In this document: piece after piece, positions 20,182 through 31,325 of the stretch
Layout of the letters: each line of letters opens with the position of its first letter
How positions within the stretch are numbered: the stretch's first letter is position 1
Assembly (NCBI GenBank): GCA_026415985.1
Contig: JAOAGA010000007.1
Span: forward strand, 1 to 38,884
Origin: Pseudomonadota bacterium
GTDB taxonomy: Bacteria > CALINM01
DNA: 38,884 nucleotides
Direction of reading: 5' to 3'
The notes under the pieces: model-generated
Told to the model about the DNA's origin: nothing
The model's database searches: none
Seen by the model: only the letters and a program-made list of their open reading frames with translations
Made by a program: the position numbers and the translations under genes

Positions 20182-21662
20182 AAGAGTTGAATTTTATAAT
20201 TATTAATAAACTGGCCATATTAGTATTCATCTTGGTTTTTTTTCTCGTAGTATTGGTTTTAAAGAGATTAACCAGATATAAAATCTCAATAAAGTTAGTA
20301 TCGGGTACAATAAAATTAACAATTTTAGGGTTAGTTTTGCTTCTTTTCTCGGTAGAACTCAAAGATATCCCAATTTATGGAAAAACCGCCCATATCATTC
20401 AAAATCTGATTGCTTTAATATGCGTAGCCAATTTTGTCAGGTATTTGATTATAGAAGTTTTTATAAACTTAAAATGGAAGGGCAATCCTCCGTCTTTTTT
20501 AAAAGATATAGCAACATTATTAATATACTTTTTGTTTGCTATAATATCTTTAAGGTTGGTATTTAATTTAGATTTGTCTTCCGTCGTAACCACTTCTGCT
20601 GTTTTAACAGCGGGTATTGCCTTTGCTATGCAAAATACCTTGGCTAATATAATTTCTGGGTTATCTATACAGTTAGATAAAAATCTCAAGCTGGGAAACT
20701 GGGTCTATGTAAAAGATAAAGATGTATATGGAGAAATAATTAATATAGGTTTCAGGTACACAACCTTAAGAACTCTTGAAAACACAATATATATAATACC
20801 TAATAACCAGTTACTGCAGAGCCCCATAAACATCTTTGAAAAGACGGTTGATGGTTTTGCATTATACACTAATATAGGATTAAGATACGAGATTCCTCCA
20901 GACGAAGCAAAAAAAATAATTACGGAGGTTATCTCCAACAACCAAAACATTTCCAAACATTTTGAACCTAAGGTTTTTCATAACAGATACGGAGATAGTG
21001 CCATCGAGTATAAACTCAAGTTTTACATTGATGATTTTTATAAAAAGGATATTACCATTGACAGCATTCATACTCAGATCTGGTATGCTATAAAAAGGGC
21101 TGGCTACGATTTTCCGTATCCCCACAGAGAAATTGTTCATAAAAAACGGCTCGAAGAAAAACAAGAAGAATTAAATTTAACTGCCTATCTTGACAAAACC
21201 ATAATTTTCTCATATCTTAATCAATCACAAAAAAACATAATTCTCAATAAATCAAAGAAAAAAACTTACGGCAGTGGAGAAATTGTAGTTAAGCAAGGTG
21301 AGGAGGGAGATTCTCTTTTTATAGTCTTGAAAGGCCTTCTGAATGTTTTAATTGATAACGAGAAAGTTGGAACCCTCAAAGAAGGCGATTTTTTTGGTGA
21401 ATACTCTCTTTTGACAGGAGAAAGCAGAAAAGCATCTGTTATTTCACAAACAGAGTCTTTATTGCTGGAAATTAATAAAGAATGTTTATCAGAAATTTTT
21501 CAATCCTCACCTGAATTAGTAGAACAGCTTGAAGAGGTAATAATAAAAAGAGATGAAATAAACAAGAATTTTATTGCTGAGAAAACCCCAAAGAATTTAT
21601 ACGAAGAAAAATTAAACTCTTTGTCATATAAGATAAAAAAATTTTTCGGACTTATAAAATGA
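20178..21662 (+). CDS. MscS-family channel with C-terminal cyclic-nucleotide-binding domain
   Basis: Several N-terminal hydrophobic helices (about residues 5-30, 39-60, 75-96, 106-128) lead into the MscS pore helix and its continuation (about 133-170; TAGIAFAMQNTLANIISGLS). The MscS beta domain (LGNWVYVKDKDVYGEI, then IIPNNQLLQSPI) follows. Residues of about 345-455 form a CRP-like cNMP-binding domain. Its phosphate-binding cassette FGEYSLLTGESRKASV retains the Glu and Arg that bind the nucleotide. This is the architecture of bacterial cyclic-nucleotide-gated (bCNG) channels, which are thought to open on ligand binding rather than tension. ATGA overlaps join it to the RNase gene and to ispG. 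Confidence 0.9.
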   Translation: MKELNFIIINKLAILVFILVFFLVVLVLKRLTRYKISIKLVSGTIKLTILGLVLLLFSVELKDIPIYGKTAHIIQNLIALICVANFVRYLIIEVFINLKWKGNPPSFLKDIATLLIYFLFAIISLRLVFNLDLSSVVTTSAVLTAGIAFAMQNTLANIISGLSIQLDKNLKLGNWVYVKDKDVYGEIINIGFRYTTLRTLENTIYIIPNNQLLQSPINIFEKTVDGFALYTNIGLRYEIPPDEAKKIITEVISNNQNISKHFEPKVFHNRYGDSAIEYKLKFYIDDFYKKDITIDSIHTQIWYAIKRAGYDFPYPHREIVHKKRLEEKQEELNLTAYLDKTIIFSYLNQSQKNIILNKSKKKTYGSGEIVVKQGEEGDSLFIVLKGLLNVLIDNEKVGTLKEGDFFGEYSLLTGESRKASVISQTESLLLEINKECLSEIFQSSPELVEQLEEVIIKRDEINKNFIAEKTPKNLYEEKLNSLSYKIKKFFGLIK

Positions 21663-22753
21663 TAATAAATAGGAAGAAAACCCGACAAATTTATGTTGGC
21701 AACGTGGCAGTTGGAGGAACCGCTCCAATTACTATACAATCAATGACCAATACCGATACCCGGGATATCTCTGCAACAGTAAGACAAATTAAACGATTAG
21801 AGAAAAGGGGTTGTGAAATAATAAGAGTGGCAATCCCAGACAATGAATCGGCAAGGGCAATTAAGGAGATTAAAAGAAGGATTAGCATACCATTGATTGC
21901 AGACATTCATTTCGATTATAAATTAGCCCTTGAATCTATTAAAAATGGCGCAGATTGTATAAGAATAAACCCAGGAAATATAAAAAACAAAGAAAAAATC
22001 AAAGAAATAATAAAAATATCAAAAGATTATAATACATCTATAAGAATTGGTGTTAATTCTGGTTCATTAGATTATAAAATAAGGGAAAAATTTAAAAATA
22101 ATATCGATGACGGAATAGTTTTTAGCGCCATAGAGTACATCAAATTTTTTGAAGACAATGATTTTTTTAATATTAAGGTTTCTTTAAAGTCTACAGATAT
22201 ACTGACAACTATTTCCGCTTATGAAAAGTTTTCACAAAAATCTGAGTATCCTCTTCATATCGGCATAACAGAGGCAGGAACAGAGTTTTCAGGAACAATC
22301 AAATCGGCAATTGGGATAGGCTATCTGCTCATAAAAGGTATTGGAGATACTTTAAGAGTATCATTAACGGCTAATCCGGAAAAGGAGATCGATACCGCCA
22401 AGGAAATCTTGAAATCATTGAATTTAAGGCGGTTAGGACCGATTTTAATATCCTGTCCAACCTGTGCAAGAAGAGAGATAGATGTTATTAAAATAACCAA
22501 AAAGATAGAAAAAGAGTTAAAAAACATTAAATCACCAATAAAAATAGCAATAATGGGTTGTGAAGTTAACGGTCCCGGTGAGGCACGAGATGCCGACATT
22601 GGAATTGCAGGAAGTATAACAGGAGGCATAATTTTTAAAGAGGGAAGGGTATTAAAAAGAATAGAACAAAGTGATAAATTAATAAAAGAGTTTATTATAG
22701 AGATAAAGAAACTTGATGAAAAATATTGGAGGGACAAAAAAAATGAGGTATAG
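21659..22753 (+). CDS. ispG: IspG, 4-hydroxy-3-methylbut-2-enyl diphosphate synthase
   Basis: IspG is the iron-sulfur enzyme that converts methylerythritol cyclodiphosphate to HMBPP in the MEP isoprenoid pathway. The N-terminal TIM barrel shows IQSMTNTDTRD (residues 26-36) and LIADIHFDYKLAL. The C-terminal domain carries the 4Fe-4S cysteines in SCPTCARREID and GCEVNGPGEA. The length of 364 residues is normal for the short bacterial form. It overlaps the channel gene by four bases. Its last 11 bases overlap the true proS start, whose ribosome binding site lies inside ispG. Confidence 0.97.
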   Translation: MIINRKKTRQIYVGNVAVGGTAPITIQSMTNTDTRDISATVRQIKRLEKRGCEIIRVAIPDNESARAIKEIKRRISIPLIADIHFDYKLALESIKNGADCIRINPGNIKNKEKIKEIIKISKDYNTSIRIGVNSGSLDYKIREKFKNNIDDGIVFSAIEYIKFFEDNDFFNIKVSLKSTDILTTISAYEKFSQKSEYPLHIGITEAGTEFSGTIKSAIGIGYLLIKGIGDTLRVSLTANPEKEIDTAKEILKSLNLRRLGPILISCPTCARREIDVIKITKKIEKELKNIKSPIKIAIMGCEVNGPGEARDADIGIAGSITGGIIFKEGRVLKRIEQSDKLIKEFIIEIKKLDEKYWRDKKNEV

Positions 22754-24437
22754 CAGGTATTTTATACCAACTCTGAAGGAAGATCCATCTGATGCAGAAG
22801 TTATAAGTCACAAACTAATGATCAGAGCGGGAATGATAAGAAAGCTCACAAGCGGAATCTACACTTACCTCCCATTAGGATTACGAGTTTTAAAAAAGGT
22901 TGAGAATATTATAAGAGAAGAGATGAATAGGGCAGGGGCTATTGAAATATTAATGCCTTCCGTTCAGCCTAAAGAGTTATGGGAGGAAAGTGGCAGGTGG
23001 AGCTTTTACGGTAAAGAACTTCTTAGATTTAAAGATCGGTTAGGCAGAGATTACTGTTATGGTCCGACACATGAAGAAGTAGTTACCGACATAGTAAGAA
23101 ATCATATTAAATCTTATCGCGAGTTACCTATAAATTTATATCAGATACAAACTAAGTTTAGGGATGAGATAAGGCCAAGATTCGGAGTAATGAGGTCAAG
23201 AGAGTTTATAATGAAAGATGGTTATAGCTTTGATATTGATGAAAAATCAGCAGAAGAAAGTTATCATAAAATGTATGTGGCCTACTGCAAAATTTTTGAA
23301 AGATGCGGGCTTGATTTTCGTGCAGTTGAAGCGGATACCGGTGCCATTGGAGGAAATTTTTCTCATGAGTTTATGGTTATGGCTGATACCGGTGAAGATA
23401 CAATACTTTTATGTGATAAGTGCAGTTATTCTGCTAACAGAGAAAAGGCTCAGGTGGGAGAAAAAATTAGTTCCATAAATACGGAGGAGCCTTTGGAAAG
23501 GTTGGAAAAAATAAATACTCCTGATATGAAAAGCATAGAGGAGGTTTCAAATTATTTAAAAGTTTCTCCTTTAAAAACAGCAAAGACATTAATTTATATG
23601 ATAGATTCAGTTTTTCACATGGTAATCCTTAGAGGAGACAGGGAAGGGAATGAGATAAAGATTAAAAACGCAGTAAACGGTAATGAGATAAGACCTGCTA
23701 CGGAAGAAGAGATAGAAAATCTGTTGAAACTACCGGTAGGCTTTATGGGACCTTATAATGTAAGCGGGCTGAAGGTTATAGCTGATATATCTTTAAAGGG
23801 GCTTAAAAATTTTGTTACCGGCGCTAACGAAAAGGACTATCATTTCATTAATGCTAACTTTGACAGAGATATAAAGGTAGATTTTTTTGCCGATATTTCA
23901 AATGCTGTAGACGGAGACCCCTGCCCACGTTGTGAGGAAGGCAAATTATATAGTAAAAAGGGGATAGAAGTAGGACATATTTTCAAATTAGGCACAAAAT
24001 ACAGTAAATCAATGAACGCTACCTATCTAAATGAAAAAGGGGAAGAGGTTTTAATCGTTATGGGGTGTTATGGCATAGGAGTTGGCAGAACAGTTGCTGC
24101 TGCAATTGAACAAAACCATGATAAAGACGGAATTGTTTTTCCGGAACCTATTGCACCTTTTAAATATATTATAGTTCCTACAAATATAAATGACAGTGAG
24201 ATAAAAGAGACCGCCTTCAAACTATATGATATAATAACTCAAAAAGGACATGAGGTAATAATAGACGATAGAGATGAGAGACCGGGAGTAAAATTTAAAG
24301 ACGCTGATTTAATAGGCATTCCCTACCGAATTACTGTTGGCAATACTTACAAAAAGGATGGAAAGATTGAGTATGTCAGAAGAAAGGATAAAACTTCTTT
24401 ATTGTATACATTTGAAGAAGTTATAAACCATATTTAA
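22743..24437 (+). CDS. proS: Prolyl-tRNA synthetase, bacterial type with editing insert
   Basis: ProS charges tRNA-Pro. Class II motif 1 lies in the N-terminal part, motif 2 near FRDEIRPRFGVMRSREFIMKD, and motif 3 in CYGIGVGRTVAAAIEQ. Between motifs 2 and 3 is the YbaK-like insert that edits alanyl-tRNA-Pro, and the C-terminal anticodon-binding domain starts around APFKYIIVPT. I choose the ATG of MRYSRYFIPT (564 residues) rather than the ORF-track start ten codons earlier, because GGAGG lies about seven bases before it and this is where the family sequence begins. It overlaps ispG by 11 bases and is followed by pyrF after 20 bases. Confidence 0.97.
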   Translation: MRYSRYFIPTLKEDPSDAEVISHKLMIRAGMIRKLTSGIYTYLPLGLRVLKKVENIIREEMNRAGAIEILMPSVQPKELWEESGRWSFYGKELLRFKDRLGRDYCYGPTHEEVVTDIVRNHIKSYRELPINLYQIQTKFRDEIRPRFGVMRSREFIMKDGYSFDIDEKSAEESYHKMYVAYCKIFERCGLDFRAVEADTGAIGGNFSHEFMVMADTGEDTILLCDKCSYSANREKAQVGEKISSINTEEPLERLEKINTPDMKSIEEVSNYLKVSPLKTAKTLIYMIDSVFHMVILRGDREGNEIKIKNAVNGNEIRPATEEEIENLLKLPVGFMGPYNVSGLKVIADISLKGLKNFVTGANEKDYHFINANFDRDIKVDFFADISNAVDGDPCPRCEEGKLYSKKGIEVGHIFKLGTKYSKSMNATYLNEKGEEVLIVMGCYGIGVGRTVAAAIEQNHDKDGIVFPEPIAPFKYIIVPTNINDSEIKETAFKLYDIITQKGHEVIIDDRDERPGVKFKDADLIGIPYRITVGNTYKKDGKIEYVRRKDKTSLLYTFEEVINHI

Positions 24438-24457: not shown

Positions 24458-25134
24458 ATGGATACTGATAAGGTAATAGTTGCCCTTGATACAATTGATT
24501 TAAACAAGACTGACAAAATCCTGCAGAGTCTGAAAGGGATGATTTCGGTATTTAAGATTGGTATGCAATCCTTTACAAGATATGGTGTAGATATAGTTAA
24601 AAGAGTTCAGGATTCGGGTTACAAGGTATTTCTTGATTTAAAATTTTTTGATATACCAAACACCGTAGAAAAGGCGGTTTTTTCTGCCATTGAAAATGAA
24701 ATTTATATGTTGACTCTCCATATTATGGGTGGAAAAGAGATGATTAAAAGGGCAAAGGAGGTTAAGGAAGAAAAGAAAACTCCTTTTCTGCTTGGTGTAA
24801 CAGTCTTAACAAGCATGGACGAATCAAACCTAAAAGATATTGGTATAGAGAAACCAATCGATGCCTATGTACCTTTTTTAGCTTCCTATGGCAAGTTAGC
24901 AGGACTTGACGGAGTCATATCTTCTCCTCATGAGATAAAATCAATCAGAAAAACCTGTGGTGATAATTTTTTAATTGTTACTCCTGGTATCAGAAAAGAG
25001 AAAGTACAAGATGATCAAAAAAGGGTATTAACCCCAAAGAGGCTTTGGAATCTGGGGCAAATTATATAGTGATTGGCAGACCAGTTTTAGATTCATCAGA
25101 TCCGAAAGGATATTTGGAAAATATTTTTTTATGA
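24458..25134 (+). CDS. pyrF: Orotidine 5'-phosphate decarboxylase, split by a -1 frameshift
   Basis: PyrF decarboxylates OMP to UMP, the last step of pyrimidine synthesis. The catalytic motif DLKFFDIPNTV is at residues 60-70 (Asp60, Lys62, Asp65). The zero frame ends at 25069 after 203 residues with the non-family tail RLWNLGQII. The -1 frame, from codon 25039 on, reads EALESGANYIVIGRPVLDSS and ends at TGA 25134. This matches the family C-terminus, including the phosphate-binding GRP motif, and gives a 225-residue protein of usual size. The combined frame overlaps rlmB by ATGA like other genes of this operon. The shift point is a perfect slippery heptamer. Without the shift the enzyme should be inactive. 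Sequencing error, mutation and programmed frameshifting all remain possible. Confidence 0.85.
25033..25048 (+). other. Candidate -1 slippery site and overlapping hairpin in pyrF
   Basis: C CCA AAG (25033-25039) fits X XXY YYZ in the zero frame of pyrF, and a slip to CCC AAA puts ribosomes in the frame that completes the enzyme. CCAAAG (25034-25039) can also pair with CTTTGG (25043-25048) over a three-base loop. An AAAAGGG stretch resembling a Shine-Dalgarno sequence ends seven bases upstream, as found before some bacterial frameshift sites. A missing C or A in this CCCCAAA run would explain the data equally well. Confidence 0.45.
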
Positions 25135-25823
25135 TTATATATGGACTTCATCCTGTAATTAGTTTTTTAAGAGAAAAGCCTCAGTTAGTTAAAAAAGTCT
25201 TCATTTCAAGAAGACCTGATGATAAGTTATTTAATAAAGTTAAATATGAACATGTAAGTTATGATGAACTTGATAAAATTACCAAAACTAAAGACCATCA
25301 AGGTATAGCCTGTGAGATTACAGGTTTTCCTTATGTTGATGCCGATGAAATTTTAAACCATGTAAAAAAGGTTCTAATTTTAGATCATTTAGAAGATCCA
25401 AGAAACTTTGGAGCTATTTTAAGAAATGCCCTTGCTTTTAATGTTGAACTAATTGTTATACCTAAAGATAGAGCCTGCGATGTAACCCCAACTGTCATTA
25501 AGGCATCTGCAGGAACCGCAGTTTATCTAAATATCTCCAAAGTTACAAATATTAATAATTTTATAAGAGATTTAAAAAATAACTTCTTTAAAATTTTTGG
25601 TTTTGAATCAAACGGAAAGATGGCTTTATCAGAAGTCAGATTTTCTGATAAAACTGCCATAGTTTTAGGAAGTGAGGGCAAAGGTATCAGAGAGCTTACT
25701 AAAAGTCTTTGCGATTATATTATCTCAATAGAATCTAATCCTAAAGCTCAATCATTGAACGTATCTTCGGCATCTGCTATAGTTTTGTATAAACTATATA
25801 CAGATTATCAAAACTTCGTATAA
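25131..25823 (+). CDS. rlmB: RlmB-type 23S rRNA 2'-O-ribose methyltransferase (SPOUT)
   Basis: TrmH-family SPOUT methyltransferases use S-adenosylmethionine; RlmB modifies G2251 of 23S rRNA in E. coli. The N-terminal substrate-binding domain (about residues 1-75) begins IIYGLHPVISFL. The catalytic knot domain has DHLEDPRNFGAILR, KASAGTA, LGSEGKGI and SLNVSSASAI, which are motifs 1 to 3 of the family. The length of 230 residues is normal. The ATG shares ATGA with the shifted pyrF frame, and no strong Shine-Dalgarno sequence precedes it, so coupling to pyrF translation is plausible. The related tRNA methyltransferase TrmH cannot be fully excluded. Confidence 0.88.
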   Translation: MIIYGLHPVISFLREKPQLVKKVFISRRPDDKLFNKVKYEHVSYDELDKITKTKDHQGIACEITGFPYVDADEILNHVKKVLILDHLEDPRNFGAILRNALAFNVELIVIPKDRACDVTPTVIKASAGTAVYLNISKVTNINNFIRDLKNNFFKIFGFESNGKMALSEVRFSDKTAIVLGSEGKGIRELTKSLCDYIISIESNPKAQSLNVSSASAIVLYKLYTDYQNFV

Positions 25824-27227: not shown

Positions 27228-30200
27228 TTAGGCGCTTTCTCTAACCTCTTCCTCGGTATCAGTAGTAATCATAATCTTTCTATATTTTGACACACCCGTT
27301 CCCGCTGGGACAAGTCTTCCTACTATTACATTTTCTTTCAAACCTCTTAAATAGTCAATCTTGCCTTCTATGGCAGACTGGGTAAGTACTTTTGTTGTCT
27401 CCTGGAATGACGCTGCAGATATAAAGCTTTCTGTACTTAAGGATGCCTTAGTGATACCATAAAACATTGCTTCTGCCTTCGCAGGCTTTTTCCCTTCACT
27501 TACAACCCTTCTGTTTTCTTCCTCGAACACAAGTTTATCGACTATATCACCGATTATAAAATTAGTATCACCTGCATCTGTAATTTTTACCTTTTTAAGC
27601 ATCTGTCGTACAATAATCTCGAAATGTTTATCATTGATCTTAACTCCCTGAAGCCTGTAAACATTCTGAATCTCATCTACAAGGAACCTTGCTAACTCCT
27701 TTTCACCAAGTACTTTCAGTATATCATGGGGGTTGGGCGAGCCTTCGATCAACTTTTCTCCAGCCTTGATTCTTTCTCTCTCTCTAACTATGATATATTT
27801 GCCCTTAGGAATTTGATATACCTTCTCTTCACCCACATCAGGTTTGATAATTACCTGTCTCTTGCCTTTACTGTCTTTACCAAAAAATACTGTCCCATCA
27901 ATCTCTGAGATAATGGCAAATTTCTTTGGTTTTCTTGCTTCAAAAAGCTCGGCAACTCTTGGAAGTCCACCGGTTATATCGTGCTGTTTTGTAATTTCTC
28001 TTGGGTATTTAGCAATAATATCACCTGCTGAAACTTCCTGACCTTCAGTAACTATAATCATGGCACTTACAGGTAAATGGTATCTTGCTTCCATACCACT
28101 ATCGGGAATCCTCAAAGTCTTACCGGTGGTATCCTTTATTGATATTCTTGGTCTTAGTGTAACATCTTTGTGTTCTATAACAATCTTTTGAGACATTCCC
28201 GTTACTTCATCAACTTGATCTTTAATTGTAACCCCGTCTATTATATCACCAAACTTAATAATACCACCGACTTCTGTAATTATTGGTATGTAGTACGGAT
28301 CCCACTCAGCAACTCTTTGTCCACCTGTAACCTTTTCTCCATCTTTTATAAGCAATCTTGCACCGTAAATGATGGAATATTTTTCTCTTTCCCTGCCAAA
28401 ATTATCTACAACAGCAATTTCACCGTGTCTGTTGGTGATAACAAGATTTCCGTCCCTGTCTGTAACTGTCTGAACGTTAATAAGCTTTATTAAACCGTCA
28501 TTTCTGATTTCAAGGGTATTTTTCTCTGCCTTTGCTCCTGCAGTACCACCCAAATGGAACGTTCTCATTGTAAGCTGTGTGCCGGGTTCACCAATTGACT
28601 GTGCAGCAATTATACCTACCGCCTCACCAATATTTACCAAATGCCCTCTTGCTAAATCACGCCCATAACACTTTACACAGATTCCCCTTTTTGCCCTACA
28701 TGTAAGAGGAGATCTAACCTTAACTCTGTCAAATCCAGCCTCTTCGATTTTTGCCACAATATTTTCAGTAAATTCTTCACCAGATTTGATAATTATATCA
28801 TTAGTATATGGATCTCTTATATCTTCTATGGCTATTCTTCCCAAGATTCTTTCAGATAGTCTTTCTTCAATTTCTCCGGCAGAGTTAATCAAATGAGTTA
28901 GATAGATACCATCAATAGTATTGCAATCGTCAATAGTTATGCATACGTCTTGTGCGACATCAACAAGCCTTCTTGTAAGATACCCTGCATTGGCTGTTTT
29001 TAAAGCTGTATCGGCCAAACCTTTTCTGGCACCATGAGTTGAGATGAAGTACTGCAATACTGAAAGCCCCTCTTTAAAGTTAGCAGTAATGGGTGTTTCT
29101 ATTATCTGTCCCGATGGCTTTGCCATCAACCCTCTCATTCCTGCAAGCTGAACTATCTGTTGTGTACTACCTCTCGCTCCTGAGTCTGCCATTATATAAA
29201 TGGAGTTAAAACTTTCAGTAAGAATCTTTTTCCCGCCCCGTTCAACATATTCCATCTTAAGCTCATTCATCATTTCTCTTTTTATCTTATCTGTTACGGT
29301 CTGCCACAAATCGACCTTTTTGTTATATTTCTCACCTGCTGTAATATGACCATGGGCGTACTGATTTTCAATTTCTATGTCTTTTTTCATGCCTTCTTCA
29401 ATAATTTTATCTTTCTGAGTAGGAATTATAAGATGGTCGATACAGATTGATATGCCTGCTATTTTTGCCATTGAAAAGCCAAGATCTTTCAATCTGTCTG
29501 CCACAATAACAGTTGTTTTTTGACCAAAATTTCTGTAGGCATAATCTATAATGTTATTGAGTTCCTTTTTATTCAGGACCTTATTTACTACAGTAAATGG
29601 CATTTCTTTAGGCATAACCTCATAGACCAGACATCTTCCGACGGTTGTATCTACGAATTCTTTATTCATTCTTACCTTTATTTTCGCATGTAAATCAACC
29701 TCTCTTGTATCATAGGCGATTCTCACATCATCAATTCCTGAAAAGACTTTCCCCTCACCCTTTTCAAGAGGCCTTTCTCTTGTCATGTAATAAAGCCCTA
29801 AAACAATGTCCTGAGTGGGGCCGATAATTGGTTTTCCGTTGGCAGGAGAAAGTATATTATTTGTAGACATCATAAGAACCCGTGCTTCCGTCTGAGCTTC
29901 AATAGACAGAGGGATATGAACAGCCATCTGGTCACCATCGAAGTCTGCATTAAAGGCGGTACAGACAAGAGGATGAAGCTGAATTGCCTTTCCTTCAATC
30001 AGTATTGGTTCAAATGCCTGAATTCCTAATCTGTGCAAGGTGGGAGCTCTGTTTAGCAAAACAGGATGTTCCCTTGTTACCTCTTCCAAAGCATCCCAAA
30101 CCTCTGGCCTTTCTCTTTCAACAATTTTCTTTATAGATTTTATTGTTGTTGATACACCCTTTTGTTCGAGCTTCCAATAAATAAATGGTTTAAATAGTTC

Positions 30201-31325
30201 TAAAGCCATAACTTTCGGCAGTCCACATTGATGCATTCTCAGATGTGGCCCTACAACGATTACCGATCTTCCGGAATAGTCAACCCTTTTACCTAACAGA
30301 TTATGTCTGAATCTGCCTTGTTTACCTCTTATCATATCGCTTAAAGACTTTAATGGTCTCTTATGGCTACCGAGAACCGCCCTACCCCTCTTCCCGTTAT
30401 CGAAAAGAGCATCTACTGCCTCCTGTAGCATCCTCTTTTCATTTCTGATTATTATCTCCGGAGCGTTTAGTTCTATAAGTTTTTTCAATCTGTTGTTTCT
30501 GTTAATTACTCTTCTGTAAAGATCATTCAGATCTGAAGAACCAAATCTACCACCTTCTAACTGAACCAACGGCCTTAAGTCAGGAGGTAGAACAGGAATT
30601 ACATCAAGAATCATCCATTCAGGCTTATTACCGGATTTTATAAAGGCATCTATTATTTTCAGTCTTTTACCAATCTTTTTCTTCTTTGCATCAGATATTG
30701 TTTCTGCCATCTCAAGCCTAAGAGAATCGGCAAGTTCCTTTAAGTCTATTCGTTTCAGCATCTCCTTAATTGCTTCCGCACCCATTCCCGCATCGAAGGA
30801 GCCTTCTCCATACTTTGCTATAGCAGTCCTGTATTGCTCATCAGATAGTATCTCACCTTTGACAAGGTCTGTTTTCTTTGGGTCATAAACTATGTATGCC
30901 TCGAAATAAAGGACCCTTTCTAACTGTTTTAATTGTATATCAAGCAATGTACCTATTCTACTTGGCAGGCTTCTTAAAAACCATATATGAGCAACAGGCG
31001 CAGCAAGCTCAATATGCCCCATCCTTTCTCTTCTAACTCTTGAATGAATTACCTCAACTCCACACTTTTCACAAACTATGTTCCTGTGTTTCATTCTTTT
31101 ATATTTACCACAATTACACTCAAAGTCTTTTATGGGGCCAAAAATTCTGGCGCAGAAAAGTCCATCCTTTTCGGGTTTAAAGGTTCTGTAATTTATCGTC
31201 TCAGGCTTCTTGACCTCTCCGTGAGACCATTCCTTTATTTTTTCCGGTGATGCGATTGATATCTTGATTGAGTTAAAATCTTTTATCTCGTCGGTTTTAC
31301 TGTAAAAACCATAAATTGTATCCAA
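27228..31325 (-). CDS. rpoC: RNA polymerase beta' subunit
   Basis: RpoC forms the catalytic cleft of RNA polymerase with RpoB. The N-terminal zinc site has cysteines at 70, 72, 85 and 88 (CNCG and CEKC), and the active-site loop [12 protein letters not shown] binds the catalytic magnesium. The second zinc site uses [11 protein letters not shown], and the trigger-loop region follows with [16 protein letters not shown]. The length of 1365 residues is normal for the Gram-negative type without large insertions. It begins 12 bases after rpoB. The usual follower rpsL is absent; a cooC-like gene comes next. Confidence 0.98.

Follow-up and report, generated by a model that had tools for sequence, protein, structure and literature searches.

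In bacteria, the described systems closest to the locus studied here are the -1 frameshift sites of dnaX and the IS3 family, and the isolated frame breaks that surveys find in sequenced genomes. In Escherichia coli, the heptamer C_CCA_AAG combined with an IS3 pseudoknot gives 54% frameshifting and is the most shifty heptamer in the presence of a stimulator, whereas without stimulators the shift-prone motifs exceed the background, which is about 0.055%, just 2- to 10-fold (PMC4066793). Upstream stimulatory Shine-Dalgarno (SD) sequences have been listed as GAGG, GGAG, AGGA, GGNGG and AGGKG (PMC4066793). The shiftiness of E. coli dnaX is ascribed to the sole tRNA-Lys of this species, which is weak on AAG, and a second lysine tRNA, as found in Thermus, is expected to pair tightly with this codon (PMC5009743). 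The GeneTack survey requires at least five genes with a conserved site to call a programmed frameshift; singletons validated by homology it expects to reflect errors of sequencing and not true indels (PMC3711429). In a literature search combining pyrF and programmed frameshifting, the matches listed were all papers on pyrF genetics, and the term 'programmed frameshift' was absent among them.

The window (the whole stretch of DNA that was analysed, 38,884 nucleotides) contains a pyrF gene whose coding sequence is split between two frames. The relevant features are:

22713 to 24437, forward strand: proS, intact, upstream of pyrF
24458 to 25069, forward strand: zero frame of pyrF, 203 aa, lacking the C-terminal GRP motif (frame reading and profile matches)
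25033 to 25039, forward strand: C_CCA_AAG heptamer, in phase, with the presumed one-base contraction in the CCCC-AAA run at 25032-25038 (comparison with relatives)
25039 to 25134, forward strand: -1-frame remainder of pyrF, 31 codons plus stop codon, carrying the GRP motif
25131 to 25823, forward strand: rlmB (23S rRNA 2'-O-methyltransferase family), in ATGA overlap with the -1-frame stop of pyrF

The earlier note on this DNA had read the zero frame as stopping at 25069 before the GRP motif, and both the frames and the profiles bear this out. The zero-frame product ends in ..VLTPKRLWNLGQII at its stop codon. The -1 frame from 25039 begins EALESGANYIVIGRPV and reads in full EALESGANYIVIGRPVLDSSDPKGYLENIFL, up to a stop (25132-25134) that overlaps the rlmB ATG at 25131. 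Joining the two frames gives a composite of 225 aa, exactly as had been proposed together with the overlap, and this composite fits the family profiles better than the zero frame does. It scores 256.6 bits against NCBIfam PRK00230, covering profile positions 4-225 of 233, versus 217.8 bits and positions 4-197 for the zero frame; with Pfam OMPdecase the scores are 173.4 and 141.8 bits. Only the composite has the full-length match, including the GRP phosphate-binding motif, that defines an OMP decarboxylase (PyrF), and its alignment with the closest solved OMP decarboxylase (3tr2) is free of gaps over the junction. The junction peptide is TPKEALESG in the composite and TPKRLWNLGQII in the zero frame. 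The codons ACC CCA AAG at 25031-25039 place the switch on C CCA AAG in the phase that had been claimed. Near-invariant residues retained in the tail encoded by the -1 frame are A196, G200, V205, G207, R208, P209 and P216. At 0.425, the mean identity of this tail to relatives is close to that of the upstream part (0.429), the tails of intact relatives being somewhat higher. Since the tail is undecayed, the break is either not real or very young.

We compared the site in 109 relatives of pyrF, drawn from whole genomes and GTDB contigs. All of them (109/109) read through the site in a single frame, and alignment thus found the shift at the heptamer, for which conservation had been the suggested check, in 0/109. 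The sampling of the lineage comprises three genomes in the class and one in the genus, and the two nearest genomes (G001 and G002, from another genus of the family, at about 52% identity) carry an intact pyrF in the same order proS-pyrF-rlmB. This gene order is chromosomal, and megablast against the phage collection gave no match, which led us to reject a phage origin. The site codes for T-P-K-E-A, a motif of the family (T 83%, P 67%, E 55%, A 99%). Intact relatives carry the uncontracted codons, as ACC CCA AAA GAA in L011 and L049 or ACA CCA AAA GAG in L040 and L041; these four have the AAAA that the earlier note had named as the mark of an assembly error or a private mutation. The break is thus found in one genome alone with homology confirmed on both sides, the pattern of a singleton indel or error.

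These comparisons suggest how the slippery site could arise. Ordinary Thr-Pro-Lys-Glu codons, ACC CCA AAA GAG, would lose one base and leave the heptamer as a by-product. As removal of one A from these codons gives C CCA AAG, the perfect heptamer can be an outcome of the contraction and does not count as separate evidence for design; removal of one C from ACC CCC AAA GAG gives the same heptamer. We infer that the break is very probably a contraction by one base, private to this genome, of the CCCC-AAA(A) run (25032-25038), in a gene for which we found no second copy in the window genome. In favour of a contraction are the uncontracted codons of relatives, the intact nearest genomes, the undecayed tail, the single copy of pyrF beside intact pyrB, pyrD and pyrE, and the GeneTack view of singletons (PMC3711429), together with the shuffle-like folding, the lack of avoidance of the heptamer, the tRNA-Lys(CUU) and the draft state of the assembly described below. 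Against it stand the type of the heptamer, the most shift-prone in E. coli, and its rarity as a by-product: among one-base contractions of homopolymers of at least four bases in the genes of this genome, 9.8% produce an in-phase X_XXY_YYZ and just 1.5% an X_XXA_AAG.

A competing view is that the heptamer is functional. If -1 ribosomal frameshifting, whether programmed or compensatory, took place here, some ribosomes would slip with their tRNA-Pro and tRNA-Lys from CCA AAG to CCC AAA and yield a PyrF of exact length. The site has the in-phase slippery X_XXY_YYZ expected at such a switch, of the kind that is most shifty in E. coli with a stimulator (PMC4066793), and the -1 tail and the remaining pathway are kept. 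Yet a programmed site is expected to be conserved, and this one is seen in none of the 109 relatives. The heptamer favours slippage a little, and is outweighed by the missing conservation. Two neighbouring elements had been put forward as possible stimulators:

25022 to 25025, forward strand: AGGG, proposed SD-like element, 7 nt before the heptamer, inside AAA AGG GTA (Lys-Arg-Val codons)
25034 to 25048, forward strand: CCAAAG-AGG-CTTTGG, perfect 6-bp hairpin, overlapping the heptamer rather than lying downstream as a stimulator would

Both are where they had been reported, but neither holds up as a stimulator. An upstream SD is not obligatory, and AGGGT fits none of the listed ones (GAGG, GGAG, AGGA, GGNGG, AGGKG). 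Its bases belong to conserved codons, with Arg in 99% and Lys in 67% of the relatives, and the same AAA AGG GTA occurs in the intact genes of L005 and L008. The hairpin sits on the heptamer itself, and would hence be melted by a ribosome positioned on the slip site; a 6-bp hairpin is found at 3.2% of random 7-nt coding sites. A structure a few nucleotides downstream, also not obligatory in bacteria, is not apparent, because segments spanning or following the site fold within the range of their dinucleotide shuffles (z of 0.04, -0.70, 0.18 and -0.78). The heptamer and hairpin are real and mildly lucky; having been noticed post hoc, they stay within what chance allows. With no stimulator beyond chance, the relevant benchmark is that of stimulator-free motifs in E. 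coli, at most 10 times the background of about 0.055% (PMC4066793).

The lysine tRNAs of the lineage point in the same direction. We found a tRNA-Lys(CUU) adjoining tRNA-His (L196 671-746, G000:C96), 100% identical in G001 and G002. AAG therefore has its own tRNA, expected to hold it tightly (PMC5009743), instead of being read by a sole, weakly pairing tRNA-Lys(UUU). The latter was not found in the 84% complete assembly; as AAA is the commoner lysine codon in the genome (27,407 against 15,457 AAG), it is presumably encoded in the missing part. The tRNA set argues against an E. coli-like slippage. ARAGORN also reported a selenocysteine tRNA (SeC-tca) in this assembly, given which the organism may make selenoproteins.

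The heptamer is also freely used in other genes. In-phase C_CCA_AAG occurs 29 times elsewhere in the genes of this genome, for 28.2 expected, and in-phase A_AAA_AAG 629 times for 501.5 expected, so that neither is avoided. Two examples lie in the window:

20328 to 21653, forward strand: gene with an in-phase C CCA AAG at 21587 and no frame break
27228 to 31325, reverse strand: rpoC, with an in-phase C CCA AAG at 30882 and no frame break

The same genome also offers a contrast. A ChlI-like AAA+ ORF in G000:C158 (L135 / L270, about 614-2547) is followed across an A9 run by a vWA ORF (Pfam) in the -1 frame, and the same switch lies at an A10 run in G001:C176 (L271, L274) and G002:C139 (L272, L275). 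This switch resembles the magnesium-chelatase class of frameshift (PMC5009743) and, being kept in 3/3 genomes of the class, is likely, judging from these sequences, a genuine recoding site, conserved precisely where the pyrF break is absent. Transcriptional slippage on its A-run is a candidate worth testing beside ribosomal slippage, since the host has tRNA-Lys(CUU). A known class of recoding site is thus conserved in these genomes and the pyrF site is not, and we regard programmed or compensatory frameshifting at pyrF as highly unlikely. It is just as improbable that the sequence is real and that low-level slippage at C_CCA_AAG gives enough PyrF for growth, the contraction being tolerated because it made its own slippery site. 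Were this true, a housekeeping gene would have been rescued by a slippery site created by its own mutation. The frame could also be restored in some cells by phase variation of the CCCC-AAA run, or in some transcripts by slippage during transcription, and the break does sit in two adjoining short homopolymers. However, known slippage tracts are far longer than runs of 4 and 3, and the conserved switch of this genome uses an A9 run (A10 in relatives), which makes this reading extremely improbable. More generally, we consider outcomes other than error, mutation or functional slippage very unlikely. Of the three options left by the earlier note, which had called the error the simplest, the indel error and the recent mutation both survive, whereas the programmed frameshift does not, given its absence from all 109 relatives, the lack of a stimulator, the unavoided heptamer and the tRNA set.

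Is the private contraction an artefact or a mutation? The assembly of the window genome is a draft in scaffolds, with N gaps and a completeness of 84%; our screens covered 1.54 of its 1.57 Mb, with N in place of some small contigs. Among about 150 of its loci screened by homology, no other gene was broken. Scanning about 1,455 genes for coding potential picked out three frame switches as well as one anomalous start; closer inspection traced these to a plain gene junction, a gap in a scaffold (L150), the ChlI/vWA pair and an infC-like gene. The scan is blind to 31-aa tails such as that of pyrF, which it left unflagged. The infC-like gene (L187 7478-7994, G000:C105) encodes an IF-3-like protein (..INEKIKVPKVRVVDEEGKQLGILDTGQAI) and lacks an ATG, GTG or TTG start, in keeping with the non-canonical initiation for which infC is known. 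Together, the two screens led us to reject the idea of an assembly generally full of frameshifts, and the assembly is fairly clean, though a scaffolded draft.

This cleanliness, with no other unexplained broken gene in both screens, counts against an error at pyrF. Short-read indel errors also typically affect longer runs than the 4 and 3 bases seen here. The few frame breaks in the remaining assembly fit better with a true recent frameshift mutation, in a population without PyrF that would live on salvaged pyrimidines. If the sequence is real, an inactive 203-aa fragment would be made, without the last barrel strand and the GRP phosphate-binding motif. There is a reasonable route to such a mutation: template switching could have dropped one A, turning the quasipalindrome CCAAA-AGAGG-CTTTGG into the perfect 6-bp hairpin now present, of a kind seen at few random coding sites. 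On the other hand, pyrB, pyrD and pyrE of the de novo pathway are intact, the 84% complete genome yielded no uracil phosphoribosyltransferase scoring above the curated cut-off, and the pyrF tail shows no decay. Weighing these points, we judge an error of sequencing or assembly consensus, in a draft metagenome-style assembly, to have slightly better than an even chance, and to be somewhat more probable than a genuine mutation of recent date, which we hold to be a serious possibility, if one short of even.

Our results show how easily a one-base contraction in Thr-Pro-Lys-Glu codons mimics a perfect recoding site. A claim of programmed frameshifting in a draft genome should hence wait for a check of conservation, stimulators and the lysine tRNAs of the host. 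The pyrF break resembles dnaX and the IS3 family in having an X_XXA_AAG in the correct phase; unlike them, it lacks conservation, a downstream structure and a listed SD, its host has tRNA-Lys(CUU), and its zero-frame product has no evident use. The magnesium-chelatase class of -1 switches (PMC5009743) joins two ORFs, as does the ChlI/vWA site of this genome, whose A9-A10 run is conserved in all three genomes of the class, in contrast to the unconserved break in pyrF. There is also a likeness to the singleton frameshifted genes of GeneTack (PMC3711429), which share with pyrF a one-base break in an otherwise intact gene, unshared by homologues and validated by protein and Pfam matches; the pyrF break differs from them in that it happens to leave an X_XXA_AAG heptamer.
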